IMG/VR virus record: IMGVR_UViG_3300032315_000677
Span: 1-32,213 of that record
Reading direction: 5' to 3' (one strand)
DNA: 32,213 bases
From: a virus
Shown here: in pieces, positions 5,880-21,698 of the stretch
Layout of the letters: the number at the start of each line of letters is the position of its first letter
Position numbering within the stretch: position 1 is the stretch's first letter
Notes under the pieces: generated by a model
The model's input: only the letters and a program-made list of their open reading frames with translations
Told to the model about the DNA's origin: nothing
Database searches by the model: none
Position numbers and translations under genes: made by a program

Positions 5880-6335
5880 ATGGCACCGCAGAAGTTCACG
5901 CCGGACAAGACCACCTTTCAGGCTTGGCTTGCTGAAGGACTCACCCATCAGCAGATGGCAGATCGAGTCTATGAGAACACGGGCCGAAGGGTGACTAGAG
6001 CAGCAATCACCGTGGCACTCATGGGCTACGGATTGACTGCCTCCAAACCTCGGTACAAGGAGACGATCCCCTGGCGGGTGAGGGTGGAGCATGCCAAGAC
6101 CTACCCGATCAGGATGCTTCGGCTCCTGGGTAAGCGCAGGGCAGGGGTGGAACTGCCTGAGGATGATGCTCGCCTGCTGGATACCTGGCTAGTACACCTG
6201 AGCAACGAGAACCTGATCGTGGCCTATGACCCTGGCGATGACATGGGGGTCCACTATGTGGACGCTGGCTACAAGGACCATGAGGATGAGGGTCTACCCA
6301 TTAGAAAGAAGACCATTCACCTAAGCCGCGCCTGA
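5880..6335 (+). CDS. HTH DNA-binding protein, candidate immunity repressor
   Basis: The protein has 151 residues. The N-terminal half reads like a helix-turn-helix: TFQAWLAEGLTHQQMADRV, a turn, then TRAAITVALMGYG as the recognition helix. The C-terminal half is helical and acidic and shows no catalytic motif. Gene position supports a repressor role: it is next to attP and divergent from the integrase, has its own consensus promoter, and is followed by terminators and then the early operon. The operator motif CGACACGCCGA near the early promoters would be its target (inference). I cannot assign a named repressor family. An alternative is a Cro- or excise-like regulator. Confidence 0.65.
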   Translation: MAPQKFTPDKTTFQAWLAEGLTHQQMADRVYENTGRRVTRAAITVALMGYGLTASKPRYKETIPWRVRVEHAKTYPIRMLRLLGKRRAGVELPEDDARLLDTWLVHLSNENLIVAYDPGDDMGVHYVDAGYKDHEDEGLPIRKKTIHLSRA

Positions 6336-10908: not shown

Positions 10909-11652
10909 ATGCGCCGCGTATGGATCATTTCCGATCTTCAAGTTCCCCTGCACGATAGGGCCGCAGTGTCCGCTGTTGCACAAGCAATCTCAGACCTCAA
11001 GGGTCCCGATGATCTTGTTGCTACGGCTGGGGATGAAATGGATTTCACTCAAATAGGACGGTGGTCCCAAGGGACGGCACTGGAATGGTCACGCACCATT
11101 GGCAAAGACCGGGACATGACGGTTCAGATCCTGAAAGACCTTCAGGTCGATGTCTGTGTCCGCTCGAACCACACAGACAGGCTATTCACATCCCTCATGC
11201 GACGGCTTCCTGGCTTGATTGGTCTGCCGGAACTGGAGCTGGAGAACTTCCTGCGTCTGCCTGAACTCAACATCCATTTCTCAAAGGGTGCCTATCCCGT
11301 GGCACCGGGCTGGAATCTGCTCCACGGCGATGAAGCAGGAGTGTCACAGATTGCTGGGCAGACAGCGGCTGGACTGGTGAAGAAGGTCGGCACCTCCGTT
11401 GCCTGCGGTCACACTCATCGCCTCGGCCTAGTTCCCTACACGACCTCAGTGAATGGGCGCGTGACGCGCACCCTCTTTGGATTCGAGGTCGGGAATCTGA
11501 TGGACATGAGGAAGGCGACTTACGCAAAGACCCACAACTGGCAGCAGGGCTTCGGCCTGCTCTATGTGGACGGCACTCATGTCACACCCTGCCCCATCCC
11601 CATTCAGAAGAAGTCATTCGTCATTGAGGGAGAGCGTTACTCGTGGAACTGA
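10909..11652 (+). CDS. calcineurin-like metallophosphoesterase (247 aa)
   Basis: The five metal-binding motifs appear in order: SDLQVPLH (D9, H15), GDEMD (D42), SNHTD (N87, H88), LHGDE (H139) and GHTHR (H168, H170). These proteins hydrolyse phosphomono- or diesters, often DNA ends or cyclic nucleotides; the phage substrate is not known. GNH is altered to SNH, a common variant. It follows the 77-aa gene by 13 bases with AGAGGG upstream, and its stop overlaps the GTG start of the sigma-like gene. It could process DNA or RNA ends during replication (inference). Confidence 0.82.
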   Translation: MRRVWIISDLQVPLHDRAAVSAVAQAISDLKGPDDLVATAGDEMDFTQIGRWSQGTALEWSRTIGKDRDMTVQILKDLQVDVCVRSNHTDRLFTSLMRRLPGLIGLPELELENFLRLPELNIHFSKGAYPVAPGWNLLHGDEAGVSQIAGQTAAGLVKKVGTSVACGHTHRLGLVPYTTSVNGRVTRTLFGFEVGNLMDMRKATYAKTHNWQQGFGLLYVDGTHVTPCPIPIQKKSFVIEGERYSWN

Positions 11653-12266
11653 CTGATCGAGAACTACAGGTGATCACTCAGGGGGCGACCAATGCTTACA
11701 ACGCACAACGAAAGTTCATGGATGTCGGTGACCTCATCAATGAGGCCGTGCTGTGGGCGCTCACGCATGAGAAGAAGTTGCTCATGTGGCGGGAGAAGGG
11801 CAAGCACGGTGAGAACTTGCTGCGCTTCTCTGCGAAGCAGCATTGCCTGTCGCTGATTGGCAAGGAGCGCAGGCGTATCTATGTGTTGGAGAAGGATGAC
11901 ATCGCCTACTACACGCCTGCGATTGTGCGTGAGGTACTGCCTGACATCTTCGACATTGACGACTGGCTGTCAGGTTCCACGAATGATCAGGAGCGGGTGT
12001 CGGGTACATCCCGACCAAGTGAGGGCAACACTCGCCTCGCCACGGTAGTCGATGTGAAGTCTGGCTTCGACTCTTTGAGTGTCGATGACAAGGCCCTGCT
12101 CACGGATCTGTATGCCGATGGTGGTGTCACGCATCAGGTGCTGGCAGCCACGTTGGAGGTTGCCGAGAAGACGATTCAACGCCGGGAGCAGCGTGCGGTG
12201 CAGCGTCTGGTGGACAAGCTGGGTGGTGAGCTGCCCTGGTGGGACATGAAGGGTCGAAGCGCATGA
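11643..12266 (+). CDS. sigma-factor-like HTH protein (207 aa)
   Basis: The N-terminal region (FMDVGDLINEAVLWALTHEK) resembles sigma region 2 helices. The C terminus (LSVDDKALLTDLYADGGVTHQVLAATLEVAEKTIQRREQRAVQRL), about residues 140-195, resembles sigma region 4 with its helix-turn-helix. It probably binds host RNA polymerase to redirect transcription to later phage genes (inference). An alternative is a plain transcriptional activator. GTG 11643 has GAGGGAGAG upstream and overlaps the phosphoesterase stop by 10 bases. The stop overlaps the next ATG (ATGA). Confidence 0.65.
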   Translation: MELTDRELQVITQGATNAYNAQRKFMDVGDLINEAVLWALTHEKKLLMWREKGKHGENLLRFSAKQHCLSLIGKERRRIYVLEKDDIAYYTPAIVREVLPDIFDIDDWLSGSTNDQERVSGTSRPSEGNTRLATVVDVKSGFDSLSVDDKALLTDLYADGGVTHQVLAATLEVAEKTIQRREQRAVQRLVDKLGGELPWWDMKGRSA

Positions 12267-13270: not shown

Positions 13271-13431
13271 AGCGGAGTAACCACCAGTGAGTCAGTGCCG
13301 ATAGCGTGCTGACACGAGCAGCCCTTGCACTGTGCATGGTCAGCGGCAGCGAGGTCAAGGAACGTCTGTCCCCCGCCAGCCCTCCATGCCTTGTTATGTG
13401 TAGCCCCGTTCAGGCATGGCTGACAGATCAT
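13267..13431 (-). CDS. zinc-finger miniprotein (54 aa)
   Basis: MICQPCLNG near the N terminus and CKGCSCQH (residues 35-42) provide two cysteine knuckles separated by a helical AFLDLAAAD-like segment. The pattern (CxxC, then CxxCxC) suggests one zinc site. It overlaps the WhiB gene stop by 4 bases and the next gene by 4, so it is the immediate partner of WhiB. Similar WhiB-plus-Cys-protein pairs are not a pattern I can name. Confidence 0.6.
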   Translation of the reverse strand: MICQPCLNGATHNKAWRAGGGQTFLDLAAADHAQCKGCSCQHAIGTDSLVVTPL

Positions 13432-13718
13432 GCGACCTTCCTCCGCTCCGTCAACGGAATGACAGGCACGTTCAGAGGGATACGCATGTGTCTACGCATC
13501 TTCTCCCTGTCTGCTGGTGTCGTTCCTGCCCAGTAGCCCTCAGCCTCGTGATGCAAAGCCCACAACAGGCACGGTTCGCGCTTGCCGCAGTCATTGCACA
13601 GCGAATCCATGAGTTGCCGTGTCATGCGAGACACGGCATTGAATGAGGATGGGTAGTAGATCTCGGGATCGACCTGTCGGCACGGTTCAGAGCCGTCATA
13701 GGCAGGGAAGGCCACCAT
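13428..13718 (-). CDS. whiB: WhiB-family transcriptional regulator
   Basis: Four cysteines bind the 4Fe-4S cluster: C13 (EPC), C41 and C44 (CNDC) and C50, followed by the turn GYWAGTT (61-67), a form of the family's G[VI]WGG motif, and a basic C-terminal tail (REKMRRHMRI). WhiB proteins bind the host principal sigma factor and regulate promoters; phage WhiB proteins can block host WhiB genes. The 96-residue length fits. ATG 13718 overlaps the upstream TGA and has AGAGG 7 bases upstream; GTG 13721 is an alternative. It is an actinobacterial hallmark. Confidence 0.9.
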   Translation of the reverse strand: MVAFPAYDGSEPCRQVDPEIYYPSSFNAVSRMTRQLMDSLCNDCGKREPCLLWALHHEAEGYWAGTTPADREKMRRHMRIPLNVPVIPLTERRKVA

Positions 13719-13939
13719 CACGCCACCTCTAGGGTGCGATCGTGCTTTTCGTTCTCTGCCAACACCTCATCAACGGCCTCATCGGTGTATCCGAACCACT
13801 TCACCGCGAGCTCGGCGTAGTCGATAGTCCAGCGAGGTACTCGTGGCGCAGGCCAGGGATCCATGCCTCGCTGGGAGCAGTAGTGCAGGTACAGCAGGCG
13901 TGCAAGCGCCTGCGTAGCCCTCTGATCTTCGATGCTCAT
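13718..13939 (-). CDS. hypothetical protein (73 aa)
   Basis: First gene of the WhiB transcription unit, with an AAGGA site 11 bases before ATG 13939. The sequence (QALARLLYLHYCSQRGMDPWPAP, then TIDYAELAVKWFGYTDEAVDEVLAE) looks helical, with an HTH-like second half, but I cannot assign a family. The upstream region contains the operator-like palindrome at 13996. Confidence 0.6.
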   Translation of the reverse strand: MSIEDQRATQALARLLYLHYCSQRGMDPWPAPRVPRWTIDYAELAVKWFGYTDEAVDEVLAENEKHDRTLEVA

Positions 13940-14602: not shown

Positions 14603-14745
14603 GCCACATCCTCCGTTACTGCCTGTCGATAGGCCACCAAGTCCACTAGCAATTCCTCCACGCTCGGAGCAGGCTGCCCCGTCAGGTTGATGTACGCCTC
14701 AATGAGAGCAGCGCCACGCAGCACTGCCAGGTCGTAGTCGGTCAT
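14599..14745 (-). CDS. small helical protein (48 aa)
   Basis: MTDYDLAVLRGAALIEAYINL then PAPSVEELLVDLVAYRQAV reads as two helices. A strong GGGAGGT precedes ATG 14745 with 6-base spacing, and the ATG overlaps the methyltransferase stop (ATGA), so expression is both coupled and independent. No family recognised. Confidence 0.6.
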   Translation of the reverse strand: MTDYDLAVLRGAALIEAYINLTGQPAPSVEELLVDLVAYRQAVTEDVA

Positions 14746-15422
14746 GCACTTACCTCCCTATGTGCTGTTAGCATCGTCAGATAATCAAACGCCTGCTCCC
14801 CCACATGCTGCGTGTACGCAGGAGGGAACCCTTCCTTCAGCTCGTTCCAAGTCAGGTCACGGGTCACACCCATGACCTGGCGACCATGCTCCACGTTGCG
14901 TGCCGTCCTGCCACCTTGCGGAATGTCATCCTTCGGAACGTGATACACACCCCAAGGCCTGCCCTGCTCCTTGTGCTTGCACCCTGAGCCTGTCAGCGGG
15001 ATCGCATCGGAGGCGAACAGGCGATGCCTGCGAACCCCCAACCCATACGCAGAGCCACACTCCACTGCCGCACCCTCCATGCCTGGTGCGCCTGGTACGT
15101 TCTCAACGATCCACGCCGTGTCATGCGCCCTGAGTAGGGCAATCGTGGGCGTGAGCAGATCCTCATACTTTGACTTCCCTCCTTGTGCTGCGCGTAGATG
15201 CTTCGCTCTTGTGTGTGCTTGGCATGGTGGTGAGGCATGGATCAGGTCGAACCCTGCGAGGTAGTCGGTGTCAGCCAAGACAGCCAGCGCATCCCCTTGA
15301 TGGAACTCATAAGGGTAGTTGGGTTGTGCGCTAATGTCCCAGCCCACGACCTCGGTGAATCCGGCAGCGTGATACCCATCTGAGGCCATGCCTGCGCCAC
15401 AGAACAGGTCCAGCAGCCTCAT
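14742..15422 (-). CDS. C5-cytosine DNA methyltransferase (226 aa)
   Basis: The Dcm-type motifs are present: I LDLFCGAGM (4-12), II-like GWDI (27-30), IV SPPCQ with catalytic C67, VI ENVPG (107-111) and VIII RRHRLF (131-136). The C-terminal helix (PPAYTQHVGEQAFDYL) stands in for motif X. At 226 residues it is short, with a reduced target-recognition region, typical for phage enzymes. It transfers a methyl group to C5 of cytosine, probably to protect phage DNA from host restriction. No cognate restriction enzyme is seen. Its ATG overlaps the upstream stop. Confidence 0.9.
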   Translation of the reverse strand: MRLLDLFCGAGMASDGYHAAGFTEVVGWDISAQPNYPYEFHQGDALAVLADTDYLAGFDLIHASPPCQAHTRAKHLRAAQGGKSKYEDLLTPTIALLRAHDTAWIVENVPGAPGMEGAAVECGSAYGLGVRRHRLFASDAIPLTGSGCKHKEQGRPWGVYHVPKDDIPQGGRTARNVEHGRQVMGVTRDLTWNELKEGFPPAYTQHVGEQAFDYLTMLTAHREVSA

Positions 15423-18493: not shown

Positions 18494-18790
18494 CTAGAAC
18501 TCTGCCATGACGATCACGCCAGCGCGTTGACGTTCAGCGGCGTAGTCCGTTCGGACGTAGCGGCGTACTGGAGCATCATCATCAACGGGTGCGAGAGGCG
18601 CCAGGAGTCCCGTCGTAGGGTCCACAACCTCGCGCCTCTTACGGCGCGGTCGGGAGCCATAGGCAGGAGCCCAACCGTCAGGATGGGAAGCAGTCCGAAG
18701 ACCATAGGCGCGGCGTGCCGCGACCATAGGAGTACGGGCCGGATCTATCCATGACGGGCCATACACACCCGCGCTAGTGGCGCGGGACAT
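18494..18790 (-). CDS. hypothetical protein (98 aa), first gene of the accessory operon
   Basis: A basic, proline-rich protein (RRAYGLRTAS, GSRPRRKRREVVDPTTG, VRRYVRTDYAAERQRAGV). GAGAGGAGACAGGAT precedes ATG 18790. Two promoters (18850-18878 and 18973-19002) read toward it. The sequence resembles neither a helix-turn-helix nor a zinc finger. The middle RPRRKRRE could bind nucleic acid. No family recognised. Confidence 0.6.
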   Translation of the reverse strand: MSRATSAGVYGPSWIDPARTPMVAARRAYGLRTASHPDGWAPAYGSRPRRKRREVVDPTTGLLAPLAPVDDDAPVRRYVRTDYAAERQRAGVIVMAEF

Positions 18791-18849
18791 ATCCTGTCTC
18801 CTCTCATCTAGTCTCGTGGTGCCTTGCCTTGCTTGCCTTACTAGATCCT

Positions 18850-18878
18850 ATCCTAGCATACTTTGACTTGCCTGTCAA
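18850..18878 (-). promoter_or_regulatory. proximal promoter of the minus-strand accessory operon
   Basis: On the minus strand TTGACA (18878-18873) is followed by a 17-bp spacer and TAGGAT (18855-18850), a near-consensus sigma70 promoter about 60 bp upstream of the ATG at 18790. Confidence 0.7.
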
Positions 18879-18972
18879 CATCTGGGGGGAAGATGTCCTA
18901 GTGTCCTCCGGGCGTCCCGTTTGGTGTGAGGATCTGGCCTAGTTGTCTGTCTCCCCTTTTCTGTTGTAGTCC

Positions 18973-19002
18973 TATCTAATCATACATGAACCTAGTTGTC
19001 AA
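18973..19002 (-). promoter_or_regulatory. distal promoter of the minus-strand accessory operon
   Basis: On the minus strand TTGACA (19002-18997) is followed by an 18-bp spacer and TAGATA (18978-18973). A second tandem promoter for the same operon, about 180 bp upstream of its first gene. Confidence 0.6.
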
Positions 19003-19119
19003 GCGGTATTGCCTCATGGGCAGGTCACAAATAGGTCACGCTTACATCAATCTCAGGTCAACTCTGGAGTCTGTAATATTCTGGACTCATTCCAGAATCA
19101 GGGTAGCCTAACCTGGCAG

Positions 19120-19341
19120 GATCAACGTTGATCAACATTGATCAGGTCTGATCAGACAGGGATCAGCGGGTAGCATGGGGATAGTCTCCCCTCCTGCCTG
19201 TCTCCCCTATTGTCCTAGATCAGGGGGAGATCAGACCTATATGTATACACACGGGGCCCGGCAGGCCCTCCCCCTGGGACTGGGAGGGGGACTAGGTGTG
19301 ATATCCGCACAACAACCCCTATGCTGATCAGCCTTTGATCA
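19120..19341. repeat. nine GATCAR boxes with helical phasing (iteron-like)
   Basis: GATCA starts at 19120, 19130, 19140, 19150, 19161, 19218, 19229, 19326 and 19337, each time followed by A or G. The spacings are 10, 10, 10, 11, 57, 11, 97 and 11, so boxes within a cluster lie on one face of the helix. Two longer palindromes are embedded, GATCAACGTTGATC (19120-19133) and GTCTGATCAGAC (19146-19157). There is no gene in this region. It is likely a protein-binding array of an origin, partition or regulatory site. Confidence 0.75.
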
Positions 19342-19376
19342 ATCGCCTGCATCTGTCAGCATGACCCCAGGGTGTT

Positions 19377-19405
19377 AAACAACAGATATATATACTATAT
19401 ATACT
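19377..19405. other. AT-rich stretch (possible DNA-unwinding element)
   Basis: AAACAACAGATATATATAC then TATATATACTAC is the most AT-rich run in the window and lies 36 bp after the last GATCAR box. Next to iterons and DnaA-like boxes it would suit duplex opening at an origin. Other explanations include promoter sequence. Confidence 0.45.
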
Positions 19406-19612
19406 ACCCACTTTTCATTCTGCGTAGCATTGTAATCCTGCCTGTAGAGCTGACCCCAGTACCTGTCTGACCCCACCCCTACCTGGCCTGTTCTGTACCT
19501 GTATGTCCGATATTTACTGTGAACTGCGTCACATTCAGGTAAAATCTTGCCTTTCAGGTGTCCACCTACCCCCCCTAAAACCAGGGAATAACATATAGAG
19601 CCTTTAACTAAA

Positions 19613-19671
19613 GGCGCCCCTTCAGGGGGGCGCCGCTACAGGTACTTCAGTCAGGTATAGGTAGACCTATA
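19613..19671. other. two inverted repeats upstream of terminase
   Basis: GGCGCCCC (19613-19620) pairs with GGGGCGCC (19627-19634) across a 6-base loop. TATAGGT (19656-19662) and ACCTATA (19665-19671) form a second repeat separated by AG. The first hairpin is followed by TTTAG on the minus strand and may terminate leftward transcription; the second looks like a protein site. Packaging-site function (cos or pac) is possible since terminase is adjacent. Confidence 0.45.
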
Positions 19672-19695
19672 TCTGTAGGGACAGGTCTGTCCTGG

Positions 19696-19727
19696 CTCCG
19701 TCTCGGGAGCAAGCTCCCTCGCCGGAG
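19696..19727. other. nested hairpin before terminase
   Basis: GGGAGC (19705-19710) and GCTCCC (19713-19718) form a 6-bp stem with an AA loop, inside CTCCG (19696-19700) / CGGAG (19723-19727). The whole element can be extruded as a small structured motif. It lies about 90 bp before the terminase start. Confidence 0.45.
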
Positions 19728-19742
19728 TAAATATAGGTTCCG

Positions 19743-19763
19743 TTTTCCACAGGCTGTGGATAT
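19743..19763. promoter_or_regulatory. paired DnaA-box-like sites
   Basis: TTTTCCACA (19743-19751) and TGTGGATAT (19755-19763) are inverted with three bases between. Each differs at one position from the DnaA box TTATCCACA. They support host DnaA involvement in an origin here. Because the sequence is only about 55 bp upstream of terminase, chance similarity cannot be excluded. Confidence 0.5.
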
Positions 19764-19817
19764 GAGCCTGTGACCCCCCTTGCAGGGAGTCCCCTGATTT
19801 GGGTGAGGAGTCCTGGG

Positions 19818-21698
19818 TTGGCTACGAACAGTGCTGGCAGGAAGCGCAACGATAATCCGGCTGAGGCGAAGAAGCGGTTCCTGGCTTTTCTGGGCGAGGG
19901 CCGCACGATTAACGATGCCCTCCAGCTCGCGGGTCGGACGCGGACGACGTATGAGGCGTGGCGGCGGCAGGATGCCCAGTTCGCGGCTGATGCGGACCGG
20001 ATCCGGTTGATGCGTGTCGGGGCGCAGATGGTGCGCGGCGAGGAACTGACTTTCTCGGAGTTTTCTGAGAGGTATTTGGACGCCAAGGTGTTCCCGCACA
20101 TGCAGAACGTGGTGGACCTGATCGAGGGGAATGACCCGAGCTGGCGTCATGCGGGGATGACGTATGAGCCGGGTGAGCGGGACCTGCTGATCGTGAACAT
20201 GCCCCCTGAGCATGCGAAGACGACGAGCGTGACGATCAACTACGTCACCTACCGGATTTGTATGGATCCGAATATTCGGGTGATCGTGGTGTCGAAGACG
20301 ATGGATATGGCGAAGAAGATGCTGTATGCCATTAAGACGCGCCTGACGCATCCGAAGTATGCGGAGATGATCGCGAACTATGCCCCGGTGGGCGGGTTTG
20401 AGAAGAACTCTGAGGCGTGGAATCAGAACATGATCTACATCTCGGACGATGCACGCGATTCGGGCGAAAAGGACCCTACGGTTCAGGCGCTGGGTATCCG
20501 TGGTCATATCTATGGTGCCCGTGCTGATCTGATCATCATGGATGACTGCGTGGATTTGACGAACGCCCACGAGTTCGAGAAGCAGATCGACTGGTTGCAG
20601 TCCGAGGTGATTTCCCGTATTTCCTCCACGGGTGCCCTACTGGTGGTGGGGACCAGGCTGGCGAGCAAGGATCTGTATTCGGAGATCCGTGAGCCGCAGC
20701 GGTATCCCGATGAGGTCAGCCCGTGGACGTACCTGGCGATGCCTGCCCTGCTCGATGCTGCGGACACCCCTGAGGACTGGGTGACCTTGTGGCCCCGGTC
20801 GAATCAGCCGGAGCCTGGGGTGAAGGGCCGCGATGCGGAACCGGACGCTGATGGCCTGTATCCGAAGTGGGATGGGCCGCGTCTGGCGAAGAAGAGGGCG
20901 CGAGTCAGCCCAAGAGCATGGGCGCTGGTGTACCAACAGCAGCAGGTTGCTGATGAGGGCATCTTCATGGCTGAAGCCCTGAGGGCTTCCATCAATGGCA
21001 ATCGCATGACCGGGTTGATGCCGCGTGGCATGGTGAACTGCCGCCCTGAGGGGATGGATGGGCTGATATGTGTAGCTGGCTTGGACCCGGCAATGGCGGG
21101 ACACACAGCATCGGTAGTGATCGGCTTGGATCCGTCCACGCAGAAACGCTACGTCTTGGACATTTGGAACAAGGCGGCGATGACACCGGACCAGATCAGG
21201 GATCTGATCAGGGAGTGGACCACTAAGTACGGTGTCGTGGAGTGGCGTGTGGAGAAGAACGCCTTCCAGTCGATGCTGACGCAGGACCGCGAGGTGCGCG
21301 AGTACCTGGCGGGTGCTGGCGCGATCTTGCGGGAACACTTCACTGGATCCAATAAGCATGATGTGGATTTCGGTGTCGCCTCCATGACCACGTTGTGGCA
21401 TGGCTGGCAGGACAAGCATCAGATGATTGAGCTGCCGTCCACTGCGATCAGCGAGTCAGCGAAAGCCATGATCGAGCAGTTGCTCATTTGGCACCCTGCC
21501 GCACCTAAGACCCAGAAGACCGACATCGTGATGGCGTTGTGGTTTGCGGAACTTGCGTGTCGTGACCGTATCGCGGCGATGACGAACTTCTCCCGCTCCC
21601 ATGTGAATAACCCGTTTGCCACACGCTTCGACCGTTCCACTCGGGCGACGGTGGACTTGAACGAGTTTGAACGTAATCGAATGTTCGTAACACTGTAG
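19818..21698 (+). CDS. terL: terminase large subunit (626 aa)
   Basis: An N-terminal HTH-like region (TINDALQLAGRTRTTYEAWRR, about 30-50) may bind DNA, as small terminase domains do. It is followed by the packaging ATPase: a Walker A-like PPEHAKTT (129-136), Walker B LIIMDD (D242, D243) and VVGTRLASKDLY coupling motif (about 276-287). The C-terminal nuclease has GLDPAM (D423) and KTDIVMALW as acidic metal sites. It cuts concatemers and pumps DNA into the procapsid. TTG 19818 has GAGGAG 7 bases upstream and is preferred; the frame is open to GTG 19770. The portal gene follows after 8 bases. Confidence 0.93.
   Translation: MATNSAGRKRNDNPAEAKKRFLAFLGEGRTINDALQLAGRTRTTYEAWRRQDAQFAADADRIRLMRVGAQMVRGEELTFSEFSERYLDAKVFPHMQNVVDLIEGNDPSWRHAGMTYEPGERDLLIVNMPPEHAKTTSVTINYVTYRICMDPNIRVIVVSKTMDMAKKMLYAIKTRLTHPKYAEMIANYAPVGGFEKNSEAWNQNMIYISDDARDSGEKDPTVQALGIRGHIYGARADLIIMDDCVDLTNAHEFEKQIDWLQSEVISRISSTGALLVVGTRLASKDLYSEIREPQRYPDEVSPWTYLAMPALLDAADTPEDWVTLWPRSNQPEPGVKGRDAEPDADGLYPKWDGPRLAKKRARVSPRAWALVYQQQQVADEGIFMAEALRASINGNRMTGLMPRGMVNCRPEGMDGLICVAGLDPAMAGHTASVVIGLDPSTQKRYVLDIWNKAAMTPDQIRDLIREWTTKYGVVEWRVEKNAFQSMLTQDREVREYLAGAGAILREHFTGSNKHDVDFGVASMTTLWHGWQDKHQMIELPSTAISESAKAMIEQLLIWHPAAPKTQKTDIVMALWFAELACRDRIAAMTNFSRSHVNNPFATRFDRSTRATVDLNEFERNRMFVTL

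Follow-up and report, generated by a model that had tools for sequence, protein, structure and literature searches.

A phased GATCA array beside the predicted genome end of a temperate actinobacterial phage as a candidate packaging-recognition element

In lambda cosB, the R sites read by TerS are arrayed beside the nuclease site cosN. In phage P1, TGATCA/G hexamers are the binding sites of the pacase and stand under the control of Dam methylation (PMC10028697); in the P1 genome (NC_005856; L293), they are found at 723, 730, 742 and 757 and again at 853, 865, 876 and 904, surrounding both an IHF site and the cuts annotated at 805-814. For the FlowerPower group of phages, a terminal repeat of 253 bp has been reported from isolate sequencing (PMC9753666).

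The DNA analysed here is an IMG/VR contig of 32,213 nucleotides, referred to as the window at its full length, which encodes an integrase, a repressor, a DnaB-like helicase, an exonuclease, an endolysin, a portal and a large terminase, and contains primase-type domains. The phage is temperate. Judged by its sequence, the contig belongs to an actinobacterial phage family related to the Streptomyces Beephvirinae, which are its nearest isolates (e.g., Manuel; terminase identity of 47-50%). The search of viral contigs retrieved 25 loci, most of them at 67-99% terminase identity, and a wider search retrieved 80, and the host search returned only Streptomyces contigs and one MAG, with terminases 45-48% identical. 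G003, a relative that closes into a circle of about 40.5 kb, has an integrase 97% and a repressor 92% identical to those of the window, and thus the contig probably lacks about 8 kb of its genome.

The GATCA array in the intergenic region

The leftward genes of the window end at 18790 and the rightward genes start at 19818, where the terminase heads the late operon. The 1027-bp region between them, described as gene-free in the original prediction, indeed contains no listed open reading frame except for an alternative start of the terminase frame at 19770 and antisense overlaps. Neither a blastn search of the region against isolate phages nor an Rfam search gave a match. The features on which the prediction was built are the following.

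19120 to 19166, plus strand: first cluster, five GATCAR boxes (three of them TGATCA), immediately left of the predicted cut
19218 to 19234, plus strand: second cluster, two GATCAG boxes 11 bp apart, within the predicted terminal repeat
19325 to 19342, plus strand: third cluster, a pair of TGATCA boxes 11 bp apart, within the predicted terminal repeat
19384 to 19405: AT-rich run
About 19743 to 19763, plus strand: inverted DnaA-box-like pair TTTTCCACA / TGTGGATA, in the near clade only

The nine GATCA boxes start on the plus strand at 19120, 19130, 19140, 19150, 19161, 19218, 19229, 19326 and 19337 of the window, all lie within 222 bp (19120-19341), and are each followed by a purine. Their number and positions, as well as the spacings of 10, 10, 10 and 11 bp in the first cluster and of 11 bp in each of the other two, were recovered as originally predicted, and the AT-rich run and the inverted DnaA-box-like pair in front of the terminase are both present. 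Full TGATCA palindromes account for five of the nine boxes (19129, 19139, 19149, 19325, and 19336), and several of these sites are extended symmetrically with differing bases (GTTGATCAAC, GTCTGATCAGAC, and GCTGATCAGC).

Shuffling of the region revealed how rarely such an arrangement arises. In 2000 dinucleotide shuffles of the 1027 bp, there was no chain of at least three boxes and no stretch of 222 bp with nine copies, and in 300 shuffles in which all 5-mers were considered at spacings of 6-26, a chain of five was never reached. Over the whole window, GATCA is the sole 5-mer that forms a chain of at least four at 10-11 bp. The density of GATCAR on both strands, which had been proposed as a check on the array, was 14 in 222 bp (about 63 per kb) as compared to 66 in the other 32 kb (about 2 per kb). 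The GATCA cores are identical in all 10 pairwise comparisons, whereas the five bases that follow them match at 13 of 50, which is the chance level. The array is therefore not a decayed tandem duplication, and the combination of identical cores with chance-level spacers argues for selection on the core and not for slippage. The array, with its phasing, holds up, and so does the proposal that a protein docks on it. A hairpin (RNA or DNA) at the position of the third cluster was not supported, the z-scores being about -1.

The genome end and its conserved elements

Exact direct terminal repeats were identified at the homologous place in Manuel (276 bp), Immanuel3 (275 bp), and FlowerPower (253 bp). 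In the window, as at Beephvirinae-like DTR-type ends, a homologous large terminase gene with 48-50% identity over 93-97% lies right of the predicted repeat. In these three isolates the repeat starts at TACA/GTCCC, the slash marking the cut, and the conserved homologue of this site in the window is GGATA/GTCTC at 19179-19188. A terminase cut is accordingly placed by homology as a prediction only, with the following coordinates.

19179 to 19192, plus strand: GGATA/GTCTCCCC, where the direct terminal repeat is predicted to begin, from homology and contig starts
19184 to 19400, plus strand: predicted direct terminal repeat, its right border approximate and taken from homology to Manuel

The predicted cut, at 19183/19184, would separate the first GATCA cluster from the second and third; we infer both the cut and the repeat of this contig from homologues with about 50% terminase identity. 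The right border of the predicted repeat would lie about 20-40 bp past TGACCCCAGGGTGTTAA (19362-19378), and in Manuel ACCCCAGGGTTGTTAA is located 20-38 bp ahead of the repeat end. The contig reads through the predicted cut site, and its own ends are not visible in it. Of two independent contigs of relatives, the one behind L009 starts at GGATAGTCTC and the one behind L214 at GTCTC, both at most 5 bp from the predicted cut, where about 30 contigs end in the 1.3-kb stretch and an estimated 0.25 such coincidences would be expected; by themselves, these two coinciding starts are modest support for the position of the cut. Relative to it, the five boxes of the first cluster span -64 to -18, the two of the second +34 to +50 and the two of the third +141 to +158. 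On the linear DNA of a virion, the right-end copy of the repeat would directly adjoin the first cluster, and the second and third clusters would be inside the repeat. We consider it highly probable that the region is a genome-end site.

The most conserved element of the region is a CRP/GlxR-type box and not the GATCA array, and this box is also the stronger signal. This box and the other conserved elements are located as follows.

19023 to 19040, plus strand: GGTCACAAATAGGTCACG, direct repeat with an 11-bp period, kept in the relatives compared
19518 to 19533, plus strand: TGTGAACTGCGTCACA, perfect TGTGA-N6-TCACA dyad of CRP/GlxR type
19585 to 19600, plus strand: GGAATAACATATAGAG, conserved AT-rich promoter-like element (GGATATATATATAGA in relatives)
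19613 to 19634, plus strand: stem-loop GGCGCCCC-TTCA..GGGGCGCC, both arms of which carry base changes in relatives

TGTGA-N6-TCACA is the CRP motif, and the motif of the mycobacterial homologue is similar (PMC4117774). Exactly one copy of the box was present in 7 of 10 genomes (this contig and six of the nine others), always upstream of the terminase gene. Among 90 upstream regions, many of which are related and hence non-independent, the box was perfect in 29 and matched at least 9/10 in 51, as compared to none in the coding controls. No gene for a CRP-type protein was found in the nine phage records searched, and for this reason the host CRP/GlxR is the likely ligand of the box, which would link late phage transcription to host cAMP signalling. 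In the limited literature searched, CRP/GlxR boxes were not described from the terminase promoters of phages. Downstream of the box follow the conserved TATATATA element and then the stem-loop, for which the mean z was about -3.2. On the minus strand, the stem-loop resembles a terminator. In near relatives, GGTCACATTTAGGTAAA, which is similar to GGTCACAAATAGGTCACG, overlaps the CRP-type box. The contig also encodes a WhiB-like protein (window 13428-13721) and a sigma-70-region-4-like protein (11643-12266), both of which are candidate late regulators.

Array words in relatives and the function of the array

Comparison with relatives revealed that the GATCA array is not conserved: only its third pair is shared, and this only within the L013-L016 lineage, so that the conservation of spacing by which the original prediction was to be judged fails for GATCA itself. 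L024, whose large terminase is 99% identical and has nearly the same helix-turn-helix, contains no GATCA array, and G003 has only the third pair despite the high identity of its integrase and repressor. In blastn, G003 is collinear with the window on both sides, and the sole unaligned gap, at 19087-19175, is the array block; with G006, which is the genome of L024, the homology close to the terminase begins only at 19353.

In place of GATCA, several relatives carry GTAGGTTAC or its reverse complement near the cut, at an exact period of 15 bp. Counting units at 7/9 or more matching bases, there are seven in L007, six in L006, five each in L008 and L010, and three each in L019, L020, L026, and L228. 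This array lies left of the cut in most of them and right of it in L020 and L026, and its last unit, GTAGGATAG, overlaps the cut in L006, L008, and L010. Coding controls never contained more than one GTAGGTTAC unit in 71 loci, and these array words are nearly absent from the rest of the same genomes. In L024 and L025, GACAGG is repeated instead, and L011, L012, and L213 showed no clear array. Since 15 bp is not a whole helical turn, phasing on one face of the helix is limited to the phage studied here. The GTAGGTTAC array of L007 (L007:4272-4370) is present in both orientations and ends about 10 bp from the predicted cut. Inside the terminal repeat there are AGGTTAGG..CCTAACC dyads; a reading of the AGGTTAGG dyads of relatives as iron boxes was considered but not retained. 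In addition, an unrelated viral contig (L058:4034-4068) has a near-identical array, TTGATCAACGTTGATCAACATTGATCAACATTGATC, adjoining an endonuclease-like gene.

A packaging hub was the third alternative of the original prediction, and it is the one that the comparative data favour, as the boxes lie to both sides of the conserved site of the genome end. What the DNA letters themselves show is the array, the conserved scaffold of the cut site, the terminal repeats found in the isolates and the alternative array of the relatives; from these, we infer that packaging proteins bind the array. In our estimate, the chance that the GATCA array is a packaging-recognition (pac, terminase-recognition) element is about even. 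A putative small terminase or a host architectural protein would dock at the phased TGATCA sites that flank the cut and bend or bridge the DNA, and the large terminase would thereby be placed at GGATA/GTCTC, much as PacA/PacB act with IHF/HU at the P1 pac hexamers. The recognition word would have been swapped in this lineage, the GTAGGTTAC array with its 15-bp period being the counterpart at the same place in relatives. A fuller history is offered tentatively and is rather doubtful as a whole: an ancestral GTAGGTTAC array would have turned into the 10-11-bp TGATCA array, with the architecture, the cut and a nearly unchanged large terminase kept, an exchangeable reader setting the specificity and the word converging on that of P1. 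If the packaging reading is right, the striking repeat array would be explained as part of a packaging site, and the sister phages would form a natural series with differing arrays and one conserved cut, the comparison of which could reveal the reader protein.

The large terminase was considered as a reader of the array.

19818 to 21698, plus strand: large terminase with an N-terminal helix-turn-helix resembling the DNA-binding domains of small terminases

The model of the helix-turn-helix had a mean pLDDT of 69 (about 79-89 over residues 11-60), and its best structural matches were the phBC6A51 and Sf6 TerS, with non-significant E-values. The TerS-like part covers 19818-20040 of the window, and no separate small terminase was found in the phage family. 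In view of L024, in which a nearly identical domain occurs but the array does not, this domain is an unlikely reader of GATCA. The temperate repressor is weakened as a reader by G003, in which the main array is absent despite a repressor that is 92% identical. A different protein, of the phage or of the host, is probably the reader. The phrog_57 TerS (small terminase) was not found in this incomplete contig, PacA (phrog_1711) was found neither in it nor in the records of four relatives, one of them a closed circle, and the nine records contain no gene of the Dam family, only a C5-cytosine methylase. This methylase (window 14742-15422) is short, with 226 amino acids, matches only the first 113 of 324 profile positions, and is kept in relatives with and without integrase.

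The location of the array between divergent transcription units, in a temperate phage, would also suit an operator, in which a phage or host regulator on the phased TGATCA palindromes controls the divergent promoters (leftward early, rightward late) and its specificity shifts by lineage in an immunity-like manner. The leftward units have a recognizable promoter, and the extended palindromes fit a dimeric regulator.

18850 to 18878, minus strand: sigma-70-like promoter TTGACA-17-TAGGAT for the leftward genes

However, the array is more than 200 bp away from both this promoter and the late-promoter element, the repressor gene (5880-6335) has no TGATCA nearby, and the 92% identical repressor of G003 occurs without the main array, and we therefore hold an operator to be unlikely. 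A functionless stretch of rapidly evolving non-coding DNA with cryptic repeats is more improbable still: several relatives over-represent other words here and near relatives lack the array, but the identical cores between chance-level spacers, the absence of such arrays from coding-DNA controls, and the inverted copies at exact 15-bp spacing in L007/L008, which slippage cannot yield, all speak against it.

The origin of replication named in the original prediction gained no support and is very unlikely. It would consist of iterons to which an initiator binds, together with DnaA boxes and an AT-rich element for melting. The phased repeats, the adjoining AT-rich run and the inverted DnaA-box-like pair would fit such a site, and the proposed skew check did find the minimum of the cumulative GC skew near 19-19.5 kb; however, gene orientation switches at the same place, and the skew is therefore not independent evidence for an origin. 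Moreover, the replication genes lie at 7-11 kb, with the helicase and primase at 8-10 kb, and form a module 8-12 kb from the array, no Rep_3 initiator was found, GATCA is not conserved among relatives, and the DnaA-box-like pair, kept in the near clade of G000-G003, G006, G008, and G009, is absent in G004, G005, G007, G010, and G011. The 11-bp spacing recalls ParR-type centromeres, but a partition or centromere-like site, also put forward originally and here taken as one of a plasmid prophage, is scarcely credible, given that the phage encodes an integrase and that a search limited to ParA-type ATPases found none in this contig or in four relatives.

Comparison with known packaging systems

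As a candidate packaging-recognition element, the array differs from lambda cosB in sequence and geometry, and the ends are cohesive there, as opposed to a DTR cut here with sites on both sides of it. FlowerPower, Manuel, and Immanuel3 (Streptomyces cluster BF / Beephvirinae) share with this contig a homologous terminase, a homologous repeat-start sequence and its position relative to the terminase, as well as the CRP-type box, which matches 10/10 in Manuel and Immanuel3 and 9/10 in FlowerPower. In contrast, terminase identity to these isolates is only about 50%, and near the repeat start, no phased TGATCA array occurs in any isolate compared.

With P1 pac, the locus has in common that TGATCA or GATCAR clusters flank the cut (here predicted) on either side, within about 20-160 bp, and that the sites are beside or within terminase genes. 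The cut lies between the clusters in P1, as it is predicted to do here from homology and the two contig starts. The two systems differ in spacing, which is a regular 10-11 bp here versus 7, 12, 15 and 12, 11, 28 in P1, and in the placement of the sites, which are in non-coding DNA here and inside pacA in P1. In addition, no PacA or Dam homologue was found here, and the present phage family is of DTR type and does not package headfuls from pac. Independent support came from an unbiased search for TGATCA triples at 10-11 bp among 2.9 million viral contigs, which found a P1 relative (L080/L090; PacA 36% identical) with the array beside pacA. No common class emerged from the gene context of 39 other phased TGATCA arrays, except that one, in a P1 relative, was at pacA and another lay directly against a large-terminase gene; most were not beside terminase genes. 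The control with 12/13-bp spacing gave 100 matches, but it is an unfair one, as 12 bp is in frame and many of these may be coding, and the scan therefore does not show that 10-11-bp triples are commoner than by chance. As neither a phrog_57 TerS nor PacA or Dam turned up, the array cannot at present be counted in the P1 pac family; by analogy, it may work in a similar way. If so, unrelated actinobacterial phages would have converged with the classical pac hexamers of P1.
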